A stretch of 64,000 nt of DNA, taken from assembly GCF_014779665.1 (NCBI RefSeq), contig NZ_JACXYY010000002.1:372001-436000 (forward strand), given 5' to 3'. Shown here piece after piece: positions 28,109 to 37,285 of the stretch; the stretch's first letter is position 1; each line of letters begins with the position of its first letter. The position numbers and the translations under genes are program-made. The DNA is from Nocardioides hwasunensis (GTDB taxonomy: Bacteria > Actinomycetota > Actinomycetes > Propionibacteriales > Nocardioidaceae). Below the pieces are notes generated by a model. The model was given only the letters and a program-made list of their open reading frames with translations. It had not been told where the DNA came from and made no database searches.

Positions 28109-29404
28109 TCAGCACCCCGTCTTCGTGAACGCGCACATCGCGGAAACGATCTGCCCGGTGGTCTCGGTGACCCCGTCGGCCTGGCTCCCCAGCGATGCGA
28201 GCGAACCCTCACCGTACGTCTGCACCATCAGCCGAGCAGAACCGACCCGAGTCACCTGGAAGACCGAGCTGCCGAGCCCGTCGTCGTAGGTCAGCCCCAT
28301 CGTCACCGTGTCGTAGCCGGTGTCGCGCTCGAGGTCGGTCCACACCTGGTTGTCGAGCGAGCGGCACTCCTCGGCCGCCTGCCGGAGCGCCGCCATCCCC
28401 TCGACGGCAGCGTCGGCGTCCTCGTGGACGATGAGCTCGCGGGCGTCGAAGTACTCGGGGCCGAGGGCGCTGGTGACCAGACGCTCGGTCGGGCCGACCT
28501 CGACGCCGCGGGCGTGGGGCCACACGACGCGGCCGCACATCTCGACCTCGCCCATCCCGTCGCCGTCGGCCGACGGGGGAGACACCTCGGTCTCGCCGTC
28601 GCCGTCCGGCAGGCCGACGCCCAGTGGGAAGTCGGCGGGGATCGTGGCGGCCGCGCCGGTGGACGCGGGGCTGGGTGTGCTGCTGGGCGTGCTGGGCGAC
28701 GCCGCCTGGTCGGCGAAGACCGCGAGGGAGGCGACCGTCCGGGCGAGAGGCTCCGCGGTCGAGCTGATCTGGGCCTCCAGGTCGTCGGCACCCCACTCGC
28801 CGTACGTCGACGTGGCCAGGAGGGCGGCTCCGGCAGGCACGACCTGGATGATCGTCGCGCCCGGGCCGGGCTCGCCGTCGAGGGTGTAGGTCTGGACGAG
28901 GGTGGCGGCCGGGCTCGGCCCGAACGGCGAGCGCCGGACCTCGGTGGTCGTCTCGGTGCGGCCGCTGGTCTCGGTGGCCCCGCACGTCGTCGGCAGCTCG
29001 CTGATGGTGGTGGCCAGCGCGGCCGCCTGGCCCGGGTCGCCCAGCAGCACCAGCTCGCGGGTGTCGGCAGCCTCGCCGCCGCTGTTGTCGGCCACCATCC
29101 GGTCGCGTGTGGGCAGGCCGCGCAGCGGGGTCGTGCCGCACAGCGTGAGGTCGCGCAGCCCGGTGCCGGACCGGGAGGTCACGATGGTGTCCTGCGGCCC
29201 GCCCATGCCGTCGGCGAGAGGGAAGTCGTCAGGGATCGCACCGACCGCTCCGGTGGTGCCCGTCGCAGGGCTCGTCGTGCCGGTGGCGTCGGCGGCGTCG
29301 CCGGCGCCCCCGGACGAGGCGTCGTCGGGAGCCCGCTCACCGCACCCGGCCACGGCCAGGGTGCCGGCCAGGGCGGCCGTGGCGATCGCTGCGCGGAACC
29401 TCAC
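28109..29404 (-). CDS. Lipoprotein with two copies of a secreted domain
   Basis: 431 residues. From GTG 29404 the protein starts with basic and hydrophobic residues (RFRAAIATAALAGTLAVAGC) and a lipobox (AVAG-C), so the Cys at about 22 should be lipidated and the protein anchored outside the membrane. After a Thr/Gly-rich linker come two related segments, one from IPDDFPLADGM and one from IPADFPLGVGLPDGDGE. Each has a Cys, a V/LVLL-type strand, and an acid-rich ending; a linker of PSTPSSTPSPAST separates them. The function is unknown. It lies 70 bp after the sigma-fusion gene on the same strand, so it may be its regulatory target or partner. Confidence 0.75.
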   Translation of the reverse strand: MRFRAAIATAALAGTLAVAGCGERAPDDASSGGAGDAADATGTTSPATGTTGAVGAIPDDFPLADGMGGPQDTIVTSRSGTGLRDLTLCGTTPLRGLPTRDRMVADNSGGEAADTRELVLLGDPGQAAALATTISELPTTCGATETSGRTETTTEVRRSPFGPSPAATLVQTYTLDGEPGPGATIIQVVPAGAALLATSTYGEWGADDLEAQISSTAEPLARTVASLAVFADQAASPSTPSSTPSPASTGAAATIPADFPLGVGLPDGDGETEVSPPSADGDGMGEVEMCGRVVWPHARGVEVGPTERLVTSALGPEYFDARELIVHEDADAAVEGMAALRQAAEECRSLDNQVWTDLERDTGYDTVTMGLTYDDGLGSSVFQVTRVGSARLMVQTYGEGSLASLGSQADGVTETTGQIVSAMCAFTKTGC

Positions 29405-29474
29405 GCCTATGAAGACTCCGCGGAGGGCGAAAAGGTTGCCCCGGAGCGGGTCCCGCTCGCGCGCGAGTGGCGTG

Positions 29475-31367
29475 TCAGGCCGAGTCGAGGGTGTCGAGAC
29501 GGTCGAGCACACGGCGGGCCAGGGCCACGAAGTCGGGCCGCGCCATCGTCATGTCGCGATCGGGGGCGAAGCCGAGCTGGGAGACCGCGGTCCCCTCCCG
29601 CGCGATGGCCATCAGGAAGGGGTAGGACTGCTTGTCGTTGAGCTGGATCGTCATGGCCCAGACACTGAGGTCCCGCTTGTCCGACGAGGTGGAGGCGAGC
29701 GGCGTCACGCTCGTGCCGAGGTTCTCCTGGGCGCACTGCCGGATCCGGTTGCGCACCTGCTCGACGAACGAGCGCGCCCGGGCCGGCCTCATCTTCCCGA
29801 CCGTCTGGGTGAGGCCGAGCTGCTGGGCGTTCGGCGTCTCGGGGAAGACGAAGGTGCGGGTCAGCGCCTGGCTGATCCCCTTGCCCTGGAACGACGTCTC
29901 GTCGCACCTGGTGGCGGCGGTGTTGGTCTTCGCCCGCTCGGGGTCGGTGCCCACCCACGGCCCCCGGACCGCGGCGACGGGGGGCAGGTCGACGACCGAC
30001 AGCACTCCCGGAGGGTTCCCGATGTCGAGAGGGCGGGTGACGTTGGACCGGGGGCGGCCGGCACAGGCGCCGACGGCGTCGGAGGTGCACAGGCCGTTGA
30101 CCGAGGCGGCCAGGCCGGCGAGCGCGTCGCGGTCGCTGACCGGCCTGCCCTGGCTGCGCACGGCGCTAGTCACGACCAGGCTGCCGGTGCGGGCGACGCC
30201 GACGGTGATGGAGGCCGGCTCCGATCCCCACGACCGGAGCCGGAAGAGCCGGGCGTCGTCGCCGATCCGCTTGACCGCCTGGGTGCTCATGAGCTGGGTG
30301 CGCACGTCGGTGCACGCGGCGAACCACATGATCGAGGTCGCAAAGCCGGCCTCGGCGCTGGCGACGTCCTGCGACAGCTCGACCGTCTCGACCGCGGTGG
30401 CGGTCACGTCCGTGACCTGCCGTTTCCTGCTCCGCTGCTGCTTGCCCTGGCCGACCTTCTTCTCCACGGTGCGGGTCGCGGAGCCCTCCCAGGTGCGGGT
30501 CAGTGCGCCCACGTTGGCGGGGTCGGCGAACCGGTCGCGCTGGCAGGGGACCACGAGCCCGTCGCCGTCGAGGTTGTCGCCGGTCGAGGTCTCCTGCCAG
30601 TCCAGGCCCGGGCCGAAGCGGGTGAGCTGGTCGGGGGCGAGCAGCGAGTCCGCGCTGATCAGCTCCCCGCCGGTGTCGCTGACGGGCTCGTGGACGGTGA
30701 CGCCGCCGTTGGCCTTCTCCTGGCTGAGGCTGGTCGCCTCGGCGCCCGAGCCCGTCGCCACCAGCGAGCCGGAGGCGATCAGCGCGGCGGTCGCGACCCC
30801 GGCGCCGATCACCGTGTGCGTGCGCCGGCGAGCGGCACCGGCGCGCCGGACGACCGTCGCGCGTGGCCAGCGGATCTCCTCGAGGGGAGCCGCGAGCTCC
30901 TGGACCAGGCGGCGGATCTCGGTCGTGGGCAGGTCGCGGTGCAGGGCGAACTGCGACGTCGCGGTCTGCAGCTCGCGCTCGGCGTCGGAGCGGGTGAGAC
31001 CGACCTCACGTCCCATGTCGGCGAGGCTCAGCGTGGTGAGGTTCGTCAGCACCAGCAGCTCGCGCTGGCGCGAGGTGAGCTTGGACAGCGCGTCGAGCGT
31101 CGAGCGCACCTCGGGATCGAGCGACTTGTCGCGGTGCCAGATGCGCGCGGTGTGGCGCCGGCGGGCGCGCCGGAACGCGAGCGGACGGACGTAGGAGTCG
31201 CGGTCGTCGAGGGCGGCGACCTTGCGCCAGTGGTGCCAGGCGACCACGAAGGCGTCCCGCACGGCGGCGCGCGCGGCCGGTGCGTCGCCGGTCAGCGCGT
31301 AGGCCTCGTGCAGGAGTCGCGTGCGTGTCTCCGCGTAGTAGGCGTCGAACGTCTCCGGGCTCCTCAT
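29475..31367 (-). CDS. ECF-type sigma factor fused to a transmembrane segment and large extracytoplasmic domain
   Basis: 630 residues. Residues about 5-75 resemble sigma region 2 (FDAYYAETRTRLLHEAYALT, AFVVAWHHWRKVAAL). About 110-155 resemble region 4 (LSKLTSRQRELLVLTNLTTL, SLADMGREVGLTRSDAE). A basic stretch (RRAGAARRRTHT) leads to one hydrophobic helix (VIGAGVATAALIASGSLVAT, about 188-208), and then about 420 residues lie outside the membrane. This outer part repeats a cysteine-bearing pattern of unknown fold. A sigma factor tethered to the membrane by its own C-terminus could be released by proteolysis; that mechanism is inference. The lipoprotein gene follows downstream. Confidence 0.7.
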   Translation of the reverse strand: MRSPETFDAYYAETRTRLLHEAYALTGDAPAARAAVRDAFVVAWHHWRKVAALDDRDSYVRPLAFRRARRRHTARIWHRDKSLDPEVRSTLDALSKLTSRQRELLVLTNLTTLSLADMGREVGLTRSDAERELQTATSQFALHRDLPTTEIRRLVQELAAPLEEIRWPRATVVRRAGAARRRTHTVIGAGVATAALIASGSLVATGSGAEATSLSQEKANGGVTVHEPVSDTGGELISADSLLAPDQLTRFGPGLDWQETSTGDNLDGDGLVVPCQRDRFADPANVGALTRTWEGSATRTVEKKVGQGKQQRSRKRQVTDVTATAVETVELSQDVASAEAGFATSIMWFAACTDVRTQLMSTQAVKRIGDDARLFRLRSWGSEPASITVGVARTGSLVVTSAVRSQGRPVSDRDALAGLAASVNGLCTSDAVGACAGRPRSNVTRPLDIGNPPGVLSVVDLPPVAAVRGPWVGTDPERAKTNTAATRCDETSFQGKGISQALTRTFVFPETPNAQQLGLTQTVGKMRPARARSFVEQVRNRIRQCAQENLGTSVTPLASTSSDKRDLSVWAMTIQLNDKQSYPFLMAIAREGTAVSQLGFAPDRDMTMARPDFVALARRVLDRLDTLDSA

Positions 31368-31513
31368 GACCGCTCCACGGTACGGGAGCGGTCCATGCCG
31401 TGCACATCGGTCGGACGGCTCGTCCGGGCCCCCGACCGCGGCGTTCCCGGAGCGTCGGCGGGGCGGCGTGGGAGCGCGATCCGCGCCACCGGCCGGGTGA
31501 TGATGGCCCGGCC

Positions 31514-32845
31514 ATGACGTCGCTCCTCACCCGACCCGACCGCGCCCGGACCGAGGCTGTCCCGCCGCGTCCGCTCGTGCTGATCGCGACGCTCGGGGGA
31601 GCGCTGGCGGCGCTCGGTCCGCTGGTCGTGCTGCTGGCGGTGGGCGTGATCGGCTGGTTCATCTCCGACGCCGGCGTCCACGGCGCCCCGCGCGACGGCA
31701 TGCGGATGGGCGCGCTCGCCTGGCTGGCCGGTCACGGGTCCGGCTTCACCGTCGAGGGGGCGCGGGTCACGATCGTGCCGCTCGGCGTCACCGCCGTCGT
31801 CGCGTGGTCGATGTGGCGGCTCGGCCACCGCGTCGGTGATGCGGTGTCGGGACACGGGCCCGACGCGGACCGGATCTCCGACGGCGAGCGCGACTTCACC
31901 GTGCCGACGGCGATCTCGCTGTTCTTCGCCGGCTACGCCGTGGTCGCCGTCCTGGTGGCCACGCTCGCGGCTGGCACCACCGCCGACCCGTCCGTGCCGC
32001 GGGTGCTCGCGTGGACCCTCGTGCTGACCGCGCTGGTGGCCGCGCCGGCGATCGCGACCGGCTCGGGGCGGGCGGCGATCTGGGCCGCCCTCGCACCGGC
32101 GACCGTGCGTGCCGGCGCGGCCGTGGCGCGAGCGGTGCTGACCAGCCTGCTCGCGGTCTCCGCCCTGCTCTTCCTCGTGGCGCTGGTCCTGTCCTTCGAC
32201 GAGGCCGCCACGATGATGGCCCGGCTCCACACCAGCCCGTCCGAGGCGGGTCTCTACACGCTCGTCAACGCCGCCTTCCTCCCCAACGCCTCGCTCTTCG
32301 CCGGCTCGTGGCTGCTCGGCCCCGGGTTCGCCGTCGGCGGAGCCACGCTGGTCTCGCCCGGTGCGGTGGTGCTGGGTCCGCTGCCGGTGGTCCCGCTCCT
32401 CGCCGCACTGCCCGCAGCCGGCACGCCGGCGGGATGGGTGGCGTCGCTGATGGTGCTCCCGCCCCTGGCAGCGGCACTCGTCTCGTTCCGCGCCCTGCGC
32501 CGGAGCGCGCTCTCGTGGGACCGGATCGCCCTCGCCGGGTGCGGTGGCGGGCTGGCCGCGGGCGTCGGCCTCGCGGTGCTCGCGGCTCTGTCGGGCGGCG
32601 CGGCCGGTCCAGGTCGGATGCGGTTCATCGGCCCGTTCGTCCCCGACGTGCTGGTGCACGCCATGACCGCCTGCGGTCTCGGCGCCCTGCTCGGCGCGGC
32701 GGTCCCGGCCTTCCTCGCCTGGCGCACGGCCCGCGGCCGGGCCGCCGAGGTCGTCCGGCAGGATGACGACATGCCCGAGGACCGGACCCGCGTCGCCGCG
32801 GACGACACCCAGGCCATCAGCGCGACCGACCTCGACGAGGACTGA
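31514..32845 (+). CDS. DUF6350-family polytopic membrane protein (PerM-like)
   Basis: 443 residues with about ten hydrophobic helices, e.g. VLIATLGGALAALGPLVVLL, ISLFFAGYAVVAVLVATLAA and TSLLAVSALLFLVALVLSF. A short acidic cytosolic tail follows (DDDMPEDRTRVAADDTQAIS). The arrangement matches the DUF6350 family, for which a role in cell division has been proposed in mycobacteria (PerM). Placing it upstream of YibE/F, purN and purH is a common actinobacterial order, which supports the call. ATG 31514 is used although two in-frame alternatives lie close by. Confidence 0.75.
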   Translation: MTSLLTRPDRARTEAVPPRPLVLIATLGGALAALGPLVVLLAVGVIGWFISDAGVHGAPRDGMRMGALAWLAGHGSGFTVEGARVTIVPLGVTAVVAWSMWRLGHRVGDAVSGHGPDADRISDGERDFTVPTAISLFFAGYAVVAVLVATLAAGTTADPSVPRVLAWTLVLTALVAAPAIATGSGRAAIWAALAPATVRAGAAVARAVLTSLLAVSALLFLVALVLSFDEAATMMARLHTSPSEAGLYTLVNAAFLPNASLFAGSWLLGPGFAVGGATLVSPGAVVLGPLPVVPLLAALPAAGTPAGWVASLMVLPPLAAALVSFRALRRSALSWDRIALAGCGGGLAAGVGLAVLAALSGGAAGPGRMRFIGPFVPDVLVHAMTACGLGALLGAAVPAFLAWRTARGRAAEVVRQDDDMPEDRTRVAADDTQAISATDLDED

Positions 32846-34060: not shown

Positions 34061-34675
34061 GTGCCCGAAGCCCGTCTCGTCGTCCTGGTGTCCGGCTCCG
34101 GCACCAACCTGCAGGCCCTGATCGACGCCTGTGCCGATCCGGCGTACGGCGCCCGCATCGCGGCGGTCGGCGCCGACCGTGAGGACATCGAGGGACTCGC
34201 GCGCGCCGAGCGGGCGGGCATCCCGACCTTCGTCCGGCAGGTGTCCGACTTCGAGACCCGCGAGGGCTGGGACTCCGCCGTCACCACCGTCGTGGAGCGG
34301 TTCGAGCCCGACATCGTGGTCTCGGCCGGCTTCATGAAGCTGCTCTCGCAGGACTTCCTCGACCGCTTCCTCACCCTCAACACCCACCCGGCGCTGTGCC
34401 CGTCGTTCCCCGGCATGCACGGGCCCCGCGACGCGCTCGAGCACGGCGTCAAGGTCACCGGCGCGACGCTCTTCGTCGTCGACGCAGGCGTCGACACCGG
34501 TCCGATCGTGGCGCAGGTCCCGGTCGCCGTGGAGGAGGACGACGACGTCGCGTCCCTGCACGAGCGGATCAAGACCGCCGAGCGCGCCATGCTGGTGGAC
34601 GCGGTCGGTCGCATCGCCCGCGAAGGCGTCAGCGTGGACGGGCGCAAGGTGCGCATCGGCACGTCTGCTGGGTAG
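34061..34675 (+). CDS. purN: Phosphoribosylglycinamide formyltransferase
   Basis: 204 residues. It transfers a formyl group from 10-formyl-tetrahydrofolate to GAR in step three of purine synthesis. Visible marks: LVVLVSGSGTNLQALIDAC (phosphate-binding loop), VVSAGFMKLLSQDFLDRF, the catalytic NTHPALCPSFPGMHGPRDAL with His, and the Asp of VVDAGVDTGPIVAQVPV. The GTG start is leaderless. Its TAG stop (34673-34675) again forms part of a -10 box, TAGTCT, for the purH riboswitch transcript. FolD downstream supplies the folate cofactor. Confidence 0.93.
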   Translation: MPEARLVVLVSGSGTNLQALIDACADPAYGARIAAVGADREDIEGLARAERAGIPTFVRQVSDFETREGWDSAVTTVVERFEPDIVVSAGFMKLLSQDFLDRFLTLNTHPALCPSFPGMHGPRDALEHGVKVTGATLFVVDAGVDTGPIVAQVPVAVEEDDDVASLHERIKTAERAMLVDAVGRIAREGVSVDGRKVRIGTSAG

Positions 34676-34678
34676 TCT
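34673..34678 (+). promoter_or_regulatory. -10 box TAGTCT of the purH transcript
   Basis: The stop codon of purN is its first half. The expected transcript start (about 34685) coincides with the 5' edge of the ZTP riboswitch. Confidence 0.45.
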
Positions 34679-34686
34679 GCGGCTCA

Positions 34687-34777
34687 CACGACTGGCGCAG
34701 GTGGGACACCACCAGGGAGTGACGCGCGAGGACATCGAACGCCTGGGTGCCCTCGACTCGATCCGCAACGAGGAGTC
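34687..34777 (+). promoter_or_regulatory. ZMP/ZTP riboswitch (pfl motif) controlling purH
   Basis: The conserved strings of the pfl RNA are present in order: CGACTGGCG at 34689-34697, a P2-like stem (ggtgggacaccacc), GGGAG at 34715-34719, and CGCCTGGG at 34740-34747. It sits directly before purH, whose substrate is ZMP. After the aptamer, GACTC (34755-34759) can pair with GAGTC (34773-34777), covering the gaggag ribosome site, which suggests translational control. This is established knowledge of the family plus direct matching; no covariance model was run. Confidence 0.8.
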
Positions 34778-34779
34778 CC

Positions 34780-36354
34780 GTGTCCGACAGCACCCCTGAC
34801 CAGATCGCCATCAAGCGCGCGCTCGTCTCCGTCTACGACAAGGCCGGCCTCGACGACCTCGTCCGCGGCCTGCACGACGCCGGCGTCGAGCTCGTCTCCA
34901 CCGGCGGCTCGGCCGCACGCATCGAGTCGCTCGGCCTGCCGGTGACGAAGGTGGAGGACCTCACCGGGTTCCCCGAGTGCCTCGACGGCCGGGTCAAGAC
35001 GCTGCACCCGCGGGTGCATGCCGGCATCCTGGCCGACCGCCGCCTCGACTCCCACGTCGAGCAGCTCAAGGAGCTCGAGGTCGAGCCGTTCGACCTCGTC
35101 GTCAGCAACCTCTACCCCTTCACCCAGACCGTCGCCTCGGGAGCGAGCCCCGACGAGTGCGTGGAGCAGATCGACATCGGCGGGCCGTCGATGGTGCGCG
35201 CGGCAGCGAAGAACCACCCGAGCGTCGCCATCGTCACCTCGCCCGCGACGTACGCCGACGTGCTGGCCGCCGTCGCCGCCGGGGGCTTCACCCTGGCCGA
35301 GCGCCAGCGCCTCGCCGCCGAGGCTTTCGTGCACACCGCGACCTACGACGTGCACGTCGCCTCGTGGATGGGCAACGTGCTCACCGACACCGGCTCGGAC
35401 GGTGGCTCCGGCTTCCCGGCGTGGATGGGCGGCACGTGGGACAAGGCCGGCGAGCTGCGCTACGGCGAGAACCCGCACCAGTCCGCCGCGCTCTACACCC
35501 AGCCCGCGGGCGGTGGGCTGGCGCGTGCCGAGCAGCTCCACGGCAAGGAGATGTCCTACAACAACTACGTCGACGCCGACGCGGCCCGCCGGGCGGCCTA
35601 CGACTTCGACGAGCCGGCCGTGGCGATCATCAAGCACGCCAACCCCTGCGGCATCGCGGTCGGCGCGGACGTGGCGGCGGCGCACCGCAAGGCCCACGCG
35701 TGCGACCCCGTCAGTGCCTTCGGCGGTGTGATCGCCACCAACGTCGCGGTCTCGGTCGCGATGGCCGAGCAGGTCGCCGAGGTCTTCACCGAGGTCATCG
35801 TGGCCCCGGGCTACGAGGACGGCGCGGTGGAGGTGCTGCAGGCCAAGAAGAACATCCGCATCCTCACCTGCGAGCCCGTCGTCCGGGGCGAGGTGGAGAT
35901 GCGACCGGTCTCCGGCGGCCTGCTGGTGCAGCAGCGCGACTACGTCGACGCCCCCGGTGACGACGTCTCCACCTGGACCCTCGCCACGGGCGAGGCCGCC
36001 TCGCCCGAGGTGCTCGCCGACCTGGCCTTCGCCTGGCGCGCGTGCCGCGCGGTGAAGTCCAACGCGATCCTGCTCGCCGCTGACGGCGCCTCGGTGGGCG
36101 TCGGCATGGGTCAGGTGAACCGCGTGGACTCCTGCCGCCTCGCGGTCGAGCGCGCGGGGGACCGGGTCACCTCCGCGGTGGCCGCCTCCGACGCGTTCTT
36201 CCCCTTCGCCGACGGGCCGCAGATCCTCATCGACGCCGGCGTGAAGGCGATCGTGCAGCCGGGTGGCTCGGTCCGCGACGCCGAGGTCGTCGCGGCCTGC
36301 GAGGCCGCCGGAGTGACGATGTACCTCACCGGCACCCGCCACTTCTTCCACTGA
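34780..36354 (+). CDS. purH: Bifunctional AICAR formyltransferase / IMP cyclohydrolase
   Basis: 524 residues, catalysing the last two steps of IMP synthesis. N-terminal IMP cyclohydrolase (MGS-like): [53 protein letters not shown], and [15 protein letters not shown]-terminal AICAR transformylase: [13 protein letters not shown], the catalytic Lys-His pair in [23 protein letters not shown], and [15 protein letters not shown]. The GTG at 34780 is chosen because gaggag precedes it, 5-10 nt away, and because the riboswitch platform folds over that site. folD follows after 82 bp. Confidence 0.95.
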
Positions 36355-36423
36355 TGTTGCGCATCCCGCACTGCGTGGCGCATGGCGGAACATTCGGACT
36401 GTCGGAAGGACCTCTCCCGTGCC

Positions 36424-36429
36424 TAGGAT
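36424..36429 (+). promoter_or_regulatory. -10 box TAGGAT for a leaderless folD start
   Basis: TAGGAT ends 7 nt before GTG 36437. This excludes the ATG at 36428 and the GTG at 36419, both of which would overlap the box. Confidence 0.5.
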
Positions 36430-36436
36430 GCCCACC

Positions 36437-37285
36437 GTGACCGCACAGACCCTCGACGGCGCAGCCACCCTGCGGACCATCAAGACGGAGCTCGCCCAGC
36501 GCGTCGCCGCCCTCAAGGAGCAGGGGGTGGTCCCCGGGCTCGGCACCGTGCTCGTCGGCGACGACCCCGGCTCGCACTGGTACGTCGGTGCCAAGCACAA
36601 GGACTGCGCCGAGATCGGCATCACCTCGATCCGGCGCGACCTGCCGGCCACGGCCACCCAGGCCGAGGTGGAGGCCGTCATCGACGAGCTGAACGCCGAC
36701 GACTCCTGCACGGGGTTCATCGTGCAGCAGCCGACCGGGCTCGACGAGTTCGCCCTGCTCTCGCGCGTCGACCCCGACAAGGACGTCGACGGCCTGCACC
36801 CGACCAACCTCGGCAAGCTCGTCCTCGGCGAGGCGGGACCGCTTCCCTGCACGCCGGTGGGCTCGATCGAGCTGCTGCGTCGTCACGGGGTGGACATCGC
36901 GGGTGCGGAGGTCGTGGTCGTCGGCCGCGGCATCACCGTCGGCCGTCCGCTCGGCCTGCTGCTGACCCGGCGCTCGGAGAACGCGACCGTCACGCTCTGC
37001 CACACCGGCACCGTCGACCTCGCCGCCCACGTGCGCGACGCCGACATCGTCGTCGCCGCGGCCGGAGTGCCCGGCATCATCACCGCCGACATGGTCAAGC
37101 CGGGAGCGGCCGTGCTCGACGTCGGCGTCTCGCGGGTCGACGGCAAGGTCACCGGCGACGTGGACCCCGGCGTCTGGGACGTCGCCGGCTGGGTCTCGCC
37201 CAACCCCAAGGGCGTGGGCCCGATGACCCGCGCGATGCTGCTGAGCAACATCGTCGAGATCGCGGAGAGGTCCGTCCGGTCCTGA
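36437..37285 (+). CDS. folD: Bifunctional methylenetetrahydrofolate dehydrogenase / methenyltetrahydrofolate cyclohydrolase
   Basis: 282 residues. FolD converts 5,10-methylene-THF to 10-formyl-THF in two steps, supplying PurN and PurH. Family signs are [20 protein letters not shown] (Tyr and Lys of the catalytic YxxxK), [14 protein letters not shown], the [20 protein letters not shown] block, [20 protein letters not shown], and the nucleotide-binding loop [17 protein letters not shown]. Compared with most FolD proteins, CTP-type residues before [11 protein letters not shown] are normal. The next gene's ATG overlaps the TGA stop by one base. Confidence 0.93.

Follow-up and report, generated by a model that had tools for sequence, protein, structure and literature searches.

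In the window, by which is meant the whole 64-kb stretch of DNA that was analysed, purN is followed on the forward strand by purH and folD (Table 1). Between purN and purH lies a match to RF01750 (ZMP-ZTP), the family of the ZTP riboswitches, which are RNA sensors of an alarm molecule of the purine pathway. Among named PurH proteins, the one from Nocardioides cavernae matches best (89% identity, in a comparison that may omit the organism's own and very near records), which points to a Nocardioides-like actinobacterium. From the end of the RF01750 match at 34755 to the purH start codon at 34780 there are 24 nt, and the ribosome-binding site lies within them. An in-frame GTG at 34747, inside the aptamer, was considered as the purH start and rejected because GAGGAGTC followed by GTG, matching the start at 34780, is kept in 29 of the 30 close loci, these being the 30 nearest to the window by DNA with the window's own locus included. 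Elsewhere in the window, an 871-aa frame at 28902-31517 (+) has no Pfam match and could have arisen by chance, the DNA being GC-rich.

Table 1. Genes and RNA features at the purN-purH junction, with positions in the window.
Feature	Position	Strand	Basis or remark
purN (phosphoribosylglycinamide formyltransferase), upstream	34061..34675	+	Pfam PF00551, 158.5 bits; stop TAG 34673-34675
Predicted -10 box TAGTCT	34673..34678	+	TAG is the purN stop; TANNNT conservation
ZMP/ZTP riboswitch aptamer (RF01750 match)	34678..34755	+	44.5 bits, gathering score 39
P1 5' strand CAC	34687..34689	+	Pairs with GUG 34719-34721
Pseudoknot strand GGCG	34694..34697	+	Pairs with CGCC 34740-34743 in the P3 loop
P2 hairpin GGUGG 34700-34704 / CCACC 34709-34713	34700..34713	+	100% of cells paired
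Extended P3 hairpin CGAGG-A-CAUC / GGUG-C-CCUCG	34727..34755	+	One A-C mismatch; -10.7 kcal/mol
Candidate OFF helix, P3 3' strand 34745-34755 with 34769-34779	34745..34779	+	-10.8 kcal/mol
Candidate hairpin GACUC 34755-34759 / GAGUC 34773-34777	34755..34777	+	-4.7 kcal/mol
Shine-Dalgarno GAGGAG	34770..34775	+	Sequence; GAGGAGTC then GTG in 29/30 close loci
purH (AICAR transformylase / IMP cyclohydrolase), GTG start	34780..36354	+	PF01808, 384.7 bits; PF02142, 70.9 bits
folD (tetrahydrofolate dehydrogenase/cyclohydrolase), downstream of purH	36419..37285	+	PF02882, PF00763

A ZTP aptamer between purN and purH

The RF01750 match, found with cmscan (E 0.0005), is the sole Rfam match above threshold in the window, and the same model applied genome-wide gives one match in the whole genome. 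An earlier note, made from the letters of this stretch, had called a ZTP riboswitch here and named the Rfam model as the check; the resulting covariance score (44.5 bits; gathering score 39) bears it out, as do the gene context, the sequence conservation and the changes in P3. The three pfl blocks that the note described between purN and purH can be read directly (CGACTGGCG at 34689-34697, GGGAG at 34715-34719, and CGCCTGGG at 34740-34747), and so can the elements further downstream, GACTC (34755-34759), GAGGAG (34770-34775), GAGTC (34773-34777), and GTG (34780-34782). The note's extent for the riboswitch begins at 34687; the Rfam match begins earlier, at 34678, because the 10-bp P1 of the model enters DNA that is probably not transcribed.

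In an alignment of 72 distinct purH-linked sequences, counted without regard to their kinship, all 72 carry the core blocks CGACTGGCG, GGGAG, and CGCCTGGGT unchanged. The named structure has 91.1% of cells paired, a share that falls to 38 to 47% once partners are slid 1-3 columns out of register, and 0 of 500 shuffles reach the observed value of any of five whole-structure measures. The covariation score is 0.079, with slid partners close to it (0.070 at slide -1 and 0.071 at slide +3), and the two-sided pairs number 9 against 8 at slide +3. P3 is the main carrier of variation, with two-sided changes in seven of its ten pairs and 79% of cells paired; its outermost pair is formed in just 18 of the 72 sequences, so the outer pairs are not general. 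At the window locus, P3 consists of nine pairs around the A-C mismatch (34727-34736 with 34746-34755). Each of the three P1 pairs is standard in at least 70 of the 72 sequences and variation is almost nil, there being one two-sided pair, in 1 sequence. P2 also has one two-sided pair, in 2 sequences, and its segment (34700-34716) has a computed energy of -9.5 kcal/mol. All four pairs of the pseudoknot, between J1/2 and the P3 loop, are invariant across the 72 sequences, and covariation therefore lends the pseudoknot no support. Aligned to RF01750, the window locus is non-standard at four of the ten model P1 pairs and at one P3 pair.

With a score just 5.5 bits above the cut-off, it might be supposed that the match arose by chance or that the aptamer has decayed and lost its function. 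Invariant core blocks throughout the alignment and two-sided changes in most P3 pairs are hard to reconcile with this, and together with the score they rule it out for practical purposes. The ZTP aptamer before purH is confirmed, as far as comparison of sequences can establish it. The window RNA resembles the RF01750 class in its core blocks, its pseudoknot, the order P1-P2-P3, the purH context, and its above-gathering score. It differs from the class in its P1, which has only 3 contiguous bp where the model has up to 10 and which apparently lies at the first transcribed bases, and in its downstream part, where the ribosome-binding site directly follows P3 and a terminator was not found.

The P1-P3 linker (alignment columns 43-72) gains as much as about 28 nt in some relatives, such as L202, L213, and L215, where it looks able to form an extra hairpin.

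Predicted promoter and transcription start

The family sample consists of 108 related loci, which are all the remaining matches listed in the search of the family's genomes, and the window, giving 109 RF01750 matches from the Nocardioidaceae. The order purN-ZTP-purH is found in 58 of these, and 47 are followed by a serA-type gene, the protein start of which is phosphoglycerate dehydrogenase-like. The serA-type call was made by reading the translated start, and one representative is a 2-hydroxyacid dehydrogenase by Pfam.

Every one of the 58 purH loci has a TANNNT box whose end lies 8-12 nt upstream of CGACTGG, the distance being 9-10 nt in 55 of them. When the 60 upstream bases were shuffled base by base in 200 rounds, and boxes counted at the wider distance of 6-14 nt, a mean of 1.76 loci and a maximum of 8 had such a box. 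The presence of the box in 58/58 loci, against about two in shuffled sequence, suggests that transcription probably starts within the 3-bp P1. The start would lie at about 34684-34686, and with such a start P1 would consist of CAC/GUG only. Three contiguous P1 pairs are found in 50 of the 58 purH-linked loci, a count in which two loci were not measured. At the serA-linked loci the nearest box is mostly 13-16 nt away (35/47, counted without a shuffle control), and P1 has at least 5 contiguous bp in 28/47 and 2-3 bp in 18/47. A larger distance to the box, together with a P1 that is often longer, is what would be expected if the RNA starts within the 5' strand of P1.

The purN stop codon overlaps the TANNNT box in 32 of the 58 purH loci, no -35 consensus was found at these loci, where the -35 region is weak, and a generic sigma-70 promoter scan gave no match. 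The overlap and the missing -35 consensus would fit transcription of the aptamer by read-through from purN only, with TAGTCT a stop codon in a conserved context. This is unlikely, since in the 26 loci for which no overlap was found (in one of them, G043, the purN match ends far upstream) TANNNT still lies 8-12 nt from the core, and since the box stands farther off at the serA-linked loci, with their often longer P1. With an overlap in 32 of the 58 loci, the box is therefore not merely the purN stop codon, and the -10 box that the note had placed over the end of purN gains comparative support from its retention in 58/58.

Probable control of purH translation

The note had proposed that the pair GACTC/GAGTC sequesters the ribosome-binding site and serves as the expression platform. 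Among the 29 close loci with GAGGAGTC, GACTC is present in 26, CCTCG/CGAGG in 19, both in 16, and neither in 0. GACTC is expected by chance in a mean of 0.86 of 30 loci (maximum 4) when the linkers are shuffled base by base in 1000 rounds. The pair is thus kept in 26/30 close loci, but GAGTC covers only GAG, the 3' half of GAGGAG. Its link to the aptamer is one base only, G34755, which is common to the GACUC hairpin and to extended P3. One shared base would make GACTC/GAGTC alone a poor ligand sensor.

A second partner for the ribosome-binding site is the 3' strand of P3. The ribosome-site sequence CGAGGA (34769-34774) repeats the CGAGGA of the P3 5' strand (34727-34732), and the helix that it would form with the P3 3' strand is of equal computed energy to P3 itself (-10.8 against -10.7 kcal/mol). 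Ranked against the window's 205 further AGGAG sites, the duplex of the P3 strand with the ribosome-binding site stands at the 9th percentile; over 55 purH loci, three without AGGAG having been dropped, the median percentile is 0.22 and 28 loci fall in the top quarter, which is a moderate effect. Shuffled P3 strands pair less well with the ribosome-binding site (-8.1 against -11.0) in 48 of the 58 loci. When partners were swapped between the 58 purH loci, the swapped pairs were nearly as good as the loci's own (-10.6 against -11.0; own better in 34/58, p 0.17), and pair-specific co-evolution is therefore not shown overall. The form CTC...GAGG occurs at 28 of the 58 loci; there, flanking bases are paired in 22 against 17.6 expected (permutation p 0.0005, kinship ignored), and the helix extension totals 66, above the maximum of 63 reached by 5000 permutations, in which kinship is likewise ignored. 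Among the close loci, CCTCG/CGAGG occurs in 19/30 and is missing from 10 of the 29 with GAGGAGTC.

In folds of the free leader, the probability that the ribosome-binding site has the P3 3' strand as its partner is just 0.24 at the window locus and exceeds 0.5 in 31 of the 58 loci, without a shuffle control. Forcing P3 to form raises the opening of the ribosome-binding site in 40 of the 58 loci, from a mean of 0.33 to 0.43, again without a shuffle control, and from 0.23 to 0.46 at the window locus. The forcing costs a mean of 9.2 kcal/mol in a computation that leaves out the pseudoknot and the ligand. On the computed helix energies, the helix of the P3 strand with the ribosome-binding site appears at least as likely as GACTC/GAGTC to be the ligand-dependent competitor at this locus.

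Strand exchange of this kind has a precedent in Clostridium, where two reports (PMC10085676; PMC10907184) describe a strand after P3 that begins to pair at the 3' nucleotides of P3 and leads to a terminator. The window RNA would resemble the transcriptional pfl ZTP riboswitch of Clostridium beijerinckii in having a strand downstream of P3 that can invade the 3' side of P3; the invading strand builds a terminator in C. beijerinckii, whereas in the window RNA the ribosome-binding site would itself be the invader. An intrinsic terminator was considered as the platform and rejected, as none was found in 34500-34900. With no terminator found and the ribosome-binding site in the position of the invader, it is translation that this competition would affect. 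According to PMC9481103, the ON type is typical of ZTP switches, with a tandem ZTP pair before moeA as a predicted OFF exception. By analogy, the ligand would be expected to raise expression here also, and the RNA is predicted to bind ZMP/ZTP.

The element is probably a ZTP riboswitch at the 5' end of the purH mRNA, with its promoter at the purN end, that switches translation on by strand exchange. The purH mRNA would start from this promoter at about 34684-34686. At low ZMP/ZTP, the P3 3' strand, GACUC, or both would pair with the ribosome-binding site GAGGAGUC, and purH would be poorly translated. When 10-formyl-THF is short, ZMP/ZTP would accumulate, and the ligand would lock the pseudoknot and P3 and so withdraw the strand from the ribosome-binding site. 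The site would then be uncovered and PurH, a consumer of ZMP, would be produced.

Two other forms of control were weighed against this one. The off-state could be due solely to the GACUC/GAGUC hairpin, from which the formation of P3 would remove G34755. The retention of GACTC in 26/30 close loci, far above its frequency in shuffled linkers and despite a varying loop length and a changing P3 end (CCTCG, CCCG, CCCCG), argues for it, as does the fall in hairpin energy from -4.7 to -1.8 kcal/mol when G34755 is removed. It is nevertheless the less probable account, as the overlap with the aptamer is a single base, the fold predicted for 34685-34785 contains both the hairpin and P3, and just 7 of the family sample's 58 purH loci have GACTC together with GAGTC, which would make it a clade-specific solution. 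Control could alternatively be transcriptional, through premature termination that is possibly Rho-dependent. The Clostridium ZTP switch acts by way of an intrinsic terminator (PMC10085676), and Rho-dependent control is compatible with the data, but there is no terminator-like site in 34500-34900 and just 24 nt, which hold the ribosome-binding site, lie between the end of the match and the start codon. This makes control by termination very unlikely.

Translational strand exchange at this locus may be one case of a wider arrangement. It is tentatively suggested, with somewhat more doubt than confidence, that a ZTP sub-architecture extends throughout Nocardioides, in which a -10 box is locked to the aptamer so that the RNA begins with the 5' strand of P1, P1 is reduced to 3 bp, and a ribosome-binding site that mimics the P3 5' strand is the invader. 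If so, a choice of start site differing by one or two bases would set the stability of the aptamer. The window RNA provides a compact test case for the way in which a ZTP switch could function if it lacks a terminator and nearly all of P1.

The ZTP class itself, its association with purH, the strand exchange in P3, and the serA-type target are already in print, and the understanding of the class is unchanged by the window RNA. Targeted literature searches, which gave partial coverage, met no account of a ZTP RNA in Nocardioides, and an earlier description is possible.

ZTP aptamers among relatives

Of 149 Nocardioidaceae genomes 106 have an RF01750 match, as do 188 of 215 from the genus, in both cases with stricter filters under which weak matches can be lost. 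In this bacterium, purH, and perhaps folD, is predicted to be under direct ZMP/ZTP alarmone control. purH is among the commonest genes of RF01750 RNAs in Weinberg 2010 (PMC2864571). Twenty named purH loci were scanned among 80 listed, and six of these contain RF01750. It lies upstream of purH in five, those of N. cavernae (L032), N. agariphilus (L035), Cellulomonas aerilata (L058), Pseudactinotalea terrae (L061), and Arsenicicoccus piscis (L072), of which the last three are like the window in this respect while belonging to other genera. In Actinomadura (L069) the match is downstream of purH, and the other 14 scanned loci have no RF01750 match over threshold.

The four matches of the family sample that precede neither purH nor a serA-type gene are followed by folD (G012), by glyA (G003), by a BenE-type transporter (L146), and, in a likely false positive (L147), by no one-carbon gene. 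folD and glyA were identified by reading translated starts, and the transporter by Pfam. The L147 match, a second RF01750 match in one relative at 34.6 bits, is below the cut-off and was rejected on this ground and on the translated start of the gene after it.

The serA-linked loci are among L149-L218; at L170, for example, the aptamer is at 801-889 and the gene runs from 922. PMC9481103 describes tandem ZTP/glycine switches upstream of the gene for the first step from 3-phosphoglycerate to serine. In 32 of the 47 serA-linked loci, clusters of in-frame Met/Thr codons (MMMTMT, MTMMTMT) stand at the protein start, just past the riboswitch.

The aptamer at L146:801-877 (-) is the second in one Nocardioides genome and scores 39.0 bits, exactly the cut-off. 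It precedes the gene of a BenE-type benzoate transporter (L146:1-777 (-), PF03594), an unexpected target; one guess is that the link is to the uptake of p-aminobenzoate for folate.

In G083, a strong serA-linked aptamer (52 bits) is accompanied by a weak, sub-threshold purH-linked one (34.5 bits, L219:801-888 (-)). Some genomes without a listed purH match may therefore hold sub-threshold copies. In G290, a ZTP aptamer of 54 bits (L221:1501-1583 (-)) is followed by a frame that is folD-like rather than purH, from a reading of the DNA. Within the genus, two or three RF01750 matches per genome are found in G149, G190, G290, and G291, besides G085 and G143.
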